This document shows, piece after piece, positions 1-1,646 of a stretch of DNA of 33,378 nt. The stretch covers positions 1-33,378 of the forward strand of contig CAITZZ010000002.1 in the NCBI GenBank assembly GCA_903897005.1, in the 5' to 3' direction. Origin of the DNA: an uncultured beta proteobacterium. Its GTDB lineage: Bacteria; Pseudomonadota; Gammaproteobacteria; Burkholderiales; Burkholderiaceae_C. The first letter of the stretch is position 1, and each line of letters begins with the position of its first letter. Under the pieces are notes generated by a model. That model was not told the DNA's origin, made no database searches, and saw only the letters and a list, made by a program, of their open reading frames with translations. The translations under genes and the position numbers were made by a program.

Positions 1-56
1 CGATTGATGTGGTTACTCTTCCCTTAGAAGTTATCAAGTCTTGGGATATAACAGTA

Positions 57-1424
57 TTAAATCTGCCGTTTGACACCAAAGCGCACCGTCTTGCGTTCTT
101 CAGGAGTCAATTTCGCCATCAAATTCTTGGTGGCCCACATCGAGCCGTGACGAGCGATGTCAGACAGTCTGGCAGCATGGTTGATGGTGTCTCCCAGGAC
201 AGTGAACTCAACTTTGGTTTCGATATGAAAGATTCCCAACCATTCCTGCCCCTCGTTGATACCGGTGTTGAGGTACAGATCGTTGACCCAGTTCTTGCGC
301 AATTGCCATTCTTTGCTGATCTTGCGCATCGCTTCCCGAATCTGGTTAGCGCAACGCAGGGCGTTGTAGATGTAATTACTGTCGGGCTGTGGGAAAAAGT
401 AGTAGACCAAGCCATCACCAACGTGCTTGCCGTGGGTACCGTAGTAACTGCGGAAAATGGGCTCCATGGTGGCCCAAATCTGGTTGATCAGCTCAAAATA
501 TTCTTCTGGTGGCAATTCCGAGCAAATACGCACGGAATTCTGCAGATCGGCCACGATCACTGCAACATCGGTAAGCACCGGCAAACGCTTCTTCAGCAAA
601 TTACGGATCACGTCATCGCGTCGTTCCAGCAGCCCCAGTAACCCCTGGTGGCTATCCACATCGTCGGTAAAGACAACAAGTATGCCTTCGCGGAAGTAGG
701 AGGTGTAAACGCGATAGTGCTCGTTCTCGCCGTCTGGCGAACGAAGACAGAGCGGCCACTCTGTGATGGAGCGGGCGGCCTTGTCTGATTCGCGAGATCC
801 GACATTCATGGTGTCGGGCGAACGTTCACGCCCCAACTGCTTGTGCAGTTGTCTAAACGCTTCGAAATTTTCCACGCTCTTGCCATAGACGCCACGGGAA
901 AAGAAATCCAGAACGTAGCGTTCCTTGGTATCAGCAGGTAGACGGTCAAAATCGCCAAGCAGGGAAACCCTGGCTTCTTCGTTGTACCAGGCCAGTTCCA
1001 GGTTGTAGTTAAGCATGTATGCCGGGTAGGGCAGTTTGTCTATGGTGAGGCGCAGCGAACCAGTTTCGGCCATGGGAGCCGCTGTCGACCGCGACACAGC
1101 GCTGTCTGCCGAGCGGCTGTCGCGTTCTCTTTCAAAGCGAGGCGTGGCTGTGGTCTGCGTTGGCGAAGCTTCAAACCCTTCGCGTGACATATGACGGAAG
1201 ATGTCGGCCATGGTGAGTCCTTCTTTTTTCATAAGTTTGATGCGTTCAATACGGTCAATGGCGTCTGGTGGGAAATAGCCAAGTTGTCTGGCGCGCGTGT
1301 TGGAACTGTCATCCGGATTTCGGATTATCGGTTTCGGCAATAAACCCAGGGCTACGTAATTGTGCAATGTAGCGCGCGAGATGCCTGATGTTTCAATGAC
1401 TTCCAGACTGCTCAACATAACCAT
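57..1424 (-). CDS. MerR-type HTH / PAS-like / class III adenylate (guanylate) cyclase fusion protein
   Basis: 455-aa ORF. N-terminus ISRATLHNYVALGLLPKP...GYFPPDAIDRIERIKLMKKEGLTMADI resembles a MerR winged HTH. Middle LPYPAYMLNYNLELAWYNEEA is PAS-like. C-terminus has cyclase motifs VIVADLQNS, GKHVGDGLVYYF and FTVLGDTINHAARL (metal Asp residues, Lys, Asn and Arg positions present). Confidence 0.85.
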   Translation of the reverse strand: MVMLSSLEVIETSGISRATLHNYVALGLLPKPIIRNPDDSSNTRARQLGYFPPDAIDRIERIKLMKKEGLTMADIFRHMSREGFEASPTQTTATPRFERERDSRSADSAVSRSTAAPMAETGSLRLTIDKLPYPAYMLNYNLELAWYNEEARVSLLGDFDRLPADTKERYVLDFFSRGVYGKSVENFEAFRQLHKQLGRERSPDTMNVGSRESDKAARSITEWPLCLRSPDGENEHYRVYTSYFREGILVVFTDDVDSHQGLLGLLERRDDVIRNLLKKRLPVLTDVAVIVADLQNSVRICSELPPEEYFELINQIWATMEPIFRSYYGTHGKHVGDGLVYYFFPQPDSNYIYNALRCANQIREAMRKISKEWQLRKNWVNDLYLNTGINEGQEWLGIFHIETKVEFTVLGDTINHAARLSDIARHGSMWATKNLMAKLTPEERKTVRFGVKRQI

Positions 1425-1436: not shown

Positions 1437-1601
1437 GGTGCACTCCGCATATTTAGACAGCCCGATATTGACGCCGACCCGCTACTGCTGTCAATCGCCG
1501 CTCACATTGTTATAGCGTTAGGGCTTGATTGTGTTGCGAACCAGCAACGATTTGGACGATTCAATCATCATGTGATTGGACTGGATCGCAACCTCACTTA
1601 G

Positions 1602-1646
1602 ACAGTTCAACTGTTCAAACGCCTCCCGTTTGACGCATTTGAGGCG
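1602..1646. repeat. Cluster of overlapping inverted repeats between the SPFH gene and the MerR-cyclase gene
   Basis: ACAGTT-c-AACTGT (1602-1614); TCAAACG-cctcc-CGTTTGA (1615-1621/1627-1633); CGCCTC...GAGGCG (1620-1625/1641-1646). The last two overlap and are mutually exclusive. Confidence 0.6.

Follow-up and report, generated by a model that had tools for sequence, protein, structure and literature searches.

A gene at the start of the window (the whole stretch of DNA analysed, 33,378 nt from an uncultured beta proteobacterium) encodes a MerR-PAS-cyclase which, on balance, is best accounted for as an autoregulated, PAS-controlled DNA-binding cyclase, acting both as an autorepressor and as a maker of cAMP. 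The protein, which is presumably soluble and probably a homodimer, would be a one-component regulator and enzyme in a single chain. Its MerR-type head would bind repeated 13 bp palindromes at its own promoter and repress its own gene, the PAS domain would bind a ligand or cofactor, and a helix would relay the state of the PAS domain to the class III cyclase, leading to cAMP, and probably also to the helix-turn-helix (HTH), so coupling the two ends of the chain. One signal received by the PAS domain could then bring about release of the DNA, lifting autorepression, and/or synthesis of cAMP. It seems rather doubtful that the enzyme works while bound to the promoter, with operator occupancy and the state of the PAS domain gating the cyclase and occupancy being reported as cAMP. 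The features concerned are given in Table 1.

Table 1. Coordinates of the MerR-PAS-cyclase gene, its domains and its upstream sites in the window
Feature	Position	Strand	Details
Contig edge, 61 bp	1..61		Absent from relatives; interrupts the gene in the assembly; AGA in common with the start of contig C374
MerR-PAS-cyclase ORF	57..1424	-	455 aa, ATG start; C-terminus cut, native length 499 aa
Class III nucleotide cyclase, residues 284-446	87..575	-	D293, K333, D337, T408, N415, R419
Helical segment LLGLLERRDDVIRNLLKKRLP, PAS to cyclase	576..656	-	Modelled as a helix at 260-279
PAS-fold sensor domain, residues about 122-256	657..1061	-	Structure search; no Pfam match
MerR_1 winged HTH, residues 8-80	1185..1403	-	Pfam; recognition segment ISRATL(N/H)NY
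Operator-like site CTGTACAGTACAA	1425..1437	-	Abuts the start codon upstream; 8/9 consensus positions
Weaker operator-like site TCGGGCTGTCTAA	1453..1465	-	Just 3' of the proposed -10; relatives have stronger sites there
Proposed sigma70 promoter TTGACA-18-CAATAT	1465..1494	-	Best TTGACA/TATAAT-like match; same place in relatives
Perfect palindromic site TTAGACAGTTCAA	1598..1610		Upstream cluster
Second perfect site TTCAACTGTTCAA	1606..1618		Overlaps the site at 1598..1610

The MerR-type head and its candidate operators

The MerR-type head and the class III cyclase proposed in an earlier note on this DNA were both recovered by Pfam above the curated cut-offs (numbering in this search starting one residue later): MerR_1 at residues 8–80 of 455 aa (E 1.2e-6, 28.9 bits versus a cut-off of 21.6) and Guanylate_cyc (PF00211) at residues 285–442 (E 2e-10, 41 bits versus a cut-off of 21.9). 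The PAS-like region named in the same proposal, by contrast, had no Pfam match, either in the window protein or in the 24-member family alignment, all 24 members of which matched both MerR_1 and Guanylate_cyc at E ≤ 1. The topology of the head in the structure model (helix-helix-strand-strand-helix-helix) agreed with a MerR-type N-terminus; S16, R17, A18, L20, Y23 and P32 were invariant among the 37 family proteins, and mean pairwise identity in the recognition region was 65 %. Two features count against an autorepressor-cyclase: the linker that follows the HTH (residues 81–120, modelled with low confidence and poorly conserved, with 14 % mean pairwise identity) contains no recognizable MerR coiled coil, and a classical MerR dimer would be expected to have a longer site than a 13 bp palindrome.

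The intergenic DNA at 1425–1667, which had been put forward as a binding target, was found to hold palindromic sites common to the upstream DNA of nearly all members. The motif is a 13 bp palindrome, TTrgACwGTcyAA, which occurred upstream of the family genes and was often repeated 20–28 bp apart. There were 118 matches to CWGTHYAA in 29 upstream regions, compared with 4.0 ± 2.0 expected. At a site threshold of at least eight of the nine fixed consensus positions, 86 sites were found in 8.5 kb of upstream DNA, whereas shuffled sequence gave 4.4, and the members' own coding DNA (48 kb) had 18; at least one upstream site was present at 33 of the 37 loci, although the consensus was derived from the first locus set, so that the main count is not independent and only the held-out loci, which were few, are. 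All eight of the latter (L111, L113, L114, L115, L120, L121, L122 and L128), which are the full-length, non-degenerate members collected after the motif had been defined, had at least one site. The sites co-occurred with the HTH: they were absent upstream of the HTH-less members L037 and L100/L101, which represent one lineage, and of L105 (G718:C136), a second, degenerate copy with several substituted catalytic residues in a genome that has an intact copy as well, whilst the HTH-bearing L117, L118 and L125 had partial sites only.

These distributions suggest that the protein itself binds the sites. Domains with a regulatory role but no DNA binding are also known in front of cyclases, and sequence by itself cannot prove that the sites are operators of the MerR-PAS-cyclase. 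An autoinhibitory N-terminal domain is found, for example, in Rv1264 (PMC3938503). That a different transcription factor uses the sites to control the cyclase gene, the MerR head being a dimerization or regulatory domain without DNA binding, is nevertheless unlikely, as the recognition segment ISRATLNNY was near invariant and the sites were gone where the HTH was missing or altered (L037/L100, L105). An external factor would, moreover, normally have further targets. Tandem sites in genome G000 gave five matches, two at the gene's own promoter and three in G+C-rich sequence elsewhere, compared with two in the control; no second target was identified genome-wide by this means, the three other matches being left without annotation and those elsewhere in other genomes not all being annotated. 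No gene adjoining the cyclase was common to all lineages, and no adjoining regulator gene was conserved across them.

Many loci possessed TTGAC[A/T] separated by 16–18 bp from a -10-like hexamer, and a site occupied this spacer and/or followed immediately on the -10. This arrangement is as for a repressor, and binding would be predicted to repress the gene. A stricter, generic promoter scan of 1400–1700 made no call, the proposed promoter of the window gene being based on comparison with relatives. Activation by untwisting of the promoter, as in MerR/SoxR, with the remainder of the scheme unchanged, would suit both the membership of the MerR family and the sites inside the -35/-10 spacer of many relatives; it is nevertheless unlikely, as the spacers were 16–18 bp and not 19–20 bp (only 16–18 bp being permitted in the search) and as a site lay just after the -10 in several relatives, the window included. 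Autorepression by the MerR-type head is preferred.

A second cluster of operator-like sites was observed far upstream, at 1576–1618 in the window and, in many relatives, at about -130 to -230, and occurred in lineages with differing upstream genes. Such a cluster might serve in looping or belong to a second promoter.

Cyclase domain, PAS fold and joining helix

The catalytic residues named in the earlier note were all found, comprising the metal-binding Asp pair (D293, D337), the transition-state Asn/Arg (N415, R419) and, in the window protein, K333 and T408 as the adenine-selecting pair. Counted per position, D293, K333, D337, N415 and R419 were kept in 36 of the 37 family proteins (L010 has Gly at D337), and the cyclase was the best-conserved domain, with a mean pairwise identity of 70 %. 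Judged from these residues, the cyclase is apparently catalytically intact, and its predicted product is cAMP. Position 408 was T in 21 proteins, V in 14, A in one and L in one, and ATP specificity is uncertain for some members because of the 14 with Val. The variability of this position and the substituted residues of the degenerate paralogue L105 are the points in favour of a DNA-binding regulator whose catalytically silent cyclase fold serves as a nucleotide sensor or dimerizer, but this is quite improbable given the conservation of the five catalytic residues and of the domain as a whole, and the suggestion that the fold acts solely as a dimerization or sensing module is likewise disfavoured by the intact catalytic residues. 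Of the other mechanisms in the earlier note, synthesis of cAMP at a DNA locus and gating of the cyclase by ligand or DNA may each apply, and the locus would then be the gene's own promoter.

The proposed PAS-like sensor was supported by fold searches and not by Pfam. The AlphaFold model of this part (mean pLDDT 72) matched PAS or LOV-type PAS folds in its best 50 PDB hits (top E 6e-5, prob 1.00). The whole-chain model, like that of residues 118–284, matched PAS domains in the PDB, the matches listed for the latter being PAS folds, including LOV and PYP. A profile search of the PDB with the PAS region gave no significant match. The whole-chain model was of poor confidence (pLDDT 50), and the geometry of coupling cannot be read from it. 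Mean pairwise identity was 35 % in the PAS domain and 56 % in the helix that joins it to the cyclase, which is probably a signalling or transducer helix.

An identity with MLTR_LBD (PF17765), the ligand-binding PAS domain of XRE regulators, was considered because of a resemblance in sequence and because of neighbouring lipid-metabolism genes (acyl-CoA synthetase and β-oxidation genes), which would point to a fatty-acid-type PAS. It was not accepted, as the hhalign match was too weak (probability 9 %, E 0.0037, 46 columns) and hmmscan gave no match.

Distribution, gene context and the truncated end

The ORF claimed at 57–1424 was present and was located to the minus strand, no strand having been named before. 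Its end at position 57 is not the native end, which corrects the first reading. Relatives extended about 45 residues past the end of the window copy, and the L005 protein (499 aa) was 99.8 % identical, homology to the window breaking at position 61/62. The missing last 45 codons were found at the beginning of another contig from this genome, C374, and the gene is thus split over two contigs, the window edge and the start of C374 overlapping by 3 bp (AGA). Either the assembly is broken here or a sequence has been inserted with a 3 bp duplication; the window copy, split at residue 454, may be a disrupted allele, and an insertion could mean that this population carries a disrupted gene. Searches of the genome and of plasmids revealed no second occurrence of the sequence at 1–61. 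This sequence is foreign to the relatives and is possibly the end of a mobile element.

A survey of the architecture across genomes, as the earlier note had proposed, identified full-length relatives in Rhodoferax-like, Gallionella and Nitrosomonadales MAGs. About 22 of 90 genomes were positive in the genus search (one of them with a fragment), 13 of 399 in the order search, two of 369 in the class search and five of 299 in the phylum draw, including three from another class; these samples overlap, G000 being included in each. The family is rare and patchy, occurring in several families of Burkholderiales and reaching at least one further class of Pseudomonadota. A tblastn search of plasmids gave matches to the cyclase domain only and no full-length member.

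Lipid genes recurred near family members. In one subgroup a cNMP-binding, NTE-like patatin gene and an acyl-CoA synthetase-type gene lay upstream, sometimes with a second cyclase; the former, a cNMP-binding, NTE P-loop, patatin phospholipase gene, adjoined the cyclase in L118 (7118–8995) and also in L124–L127, and is a possible direct receptor of the cyclase product. Another subgroup had acyl-CoA dehydrogenase, thiolase and 3-hydroxyacyl-CoA dehydrogenase as neighbours. At three Gallionella-type loci a GGDEF-family gene lay 2 bp downstream of the cyclase (L012 7575–9350, L013 7554–9383 and L015 7566–9347), probably forming one operon of cAMP and c-di-GMP enzymes; in L012 this gene encoded PAS-GGDEF-EAL. 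Within the genome, 11 cNMP-binding domains scored above the Pfam cut-off, and the proteins carrying them could be receivers of a cAMP signal.

Relation to known systems

The actinobacterial Ad_Cy_reg cyclases may carry a MerR-like head. No MerR-cyclase fusion was found in the literature searched, most subscription journals lying outside its scope. Fusions of an HTH with a cyclase are known from the mycobacterial CHD+LuxR subfamily, such as Rv0386 (PMC3466318, PMC3938503), in which a class III cyclase and an HTH are likewise combined in a single chain, and the MerR-PAS-cyclase is for that reason a variant and not the first HTH-cyclase. The mycobacterial proteins differ in having a LuxR-type HTH and, in Rv0386, an AAA-ATPase, neither of which was matched in any of the 24 aligned members, whereas the window family has an N-terminal MerR HTH, a PAS domain and sites at its own promoter.

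A MerR-type head is shared with LitR/CarH (PMC9758184), as are repeated operators that overlap the -35 or lie between the transcription start and the start codon, and some sites of the window family (TTGTACAGTACAA) are similar to TGTACA-N12-TGTACA, the class II site of those regulators (PMC9758184). The window family differs in its 13 bp palindrome core and in having PAS and cyclase domains in place of a B12-binding domain. Membership of LitR/CarH was rejected, as Pfam revealed neither a B12-type domain nor a class II remnant helix bundle in the 24 members. The structures closest by sequence were 1wc1 and CyaB 3r5g (E 2.9e-12 and 7.6e-11), which have the same catalytic set with Lys and Thr but comprise soluble class III cyclase domains and lack a DNA-binding head. 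PAS-containing one-component transcription factors, such as that with the heme-PAS of FG214 (10jx), likewise join a PAS fold to DNA binding, to which the window protein adds a cyclase.

In bacteria, a cyclase and a transcription factor are usually two distinct proteins linked by a diffusible messenger, whereas here they are found in one chain. In the Gallionella relatives a connection between cAMP and c-di-GMP is possible because the PAS-GGDEF-EAL gene starts 2 bp after the cyclase. The MerR-PAS-cyclase is predicted to be a natural PAS-controlled regulator-cyclase, and as it is a single chain with an identified candidate DNA target, the mutual influence of DNA binding and cyclase activity would be directly measurable.
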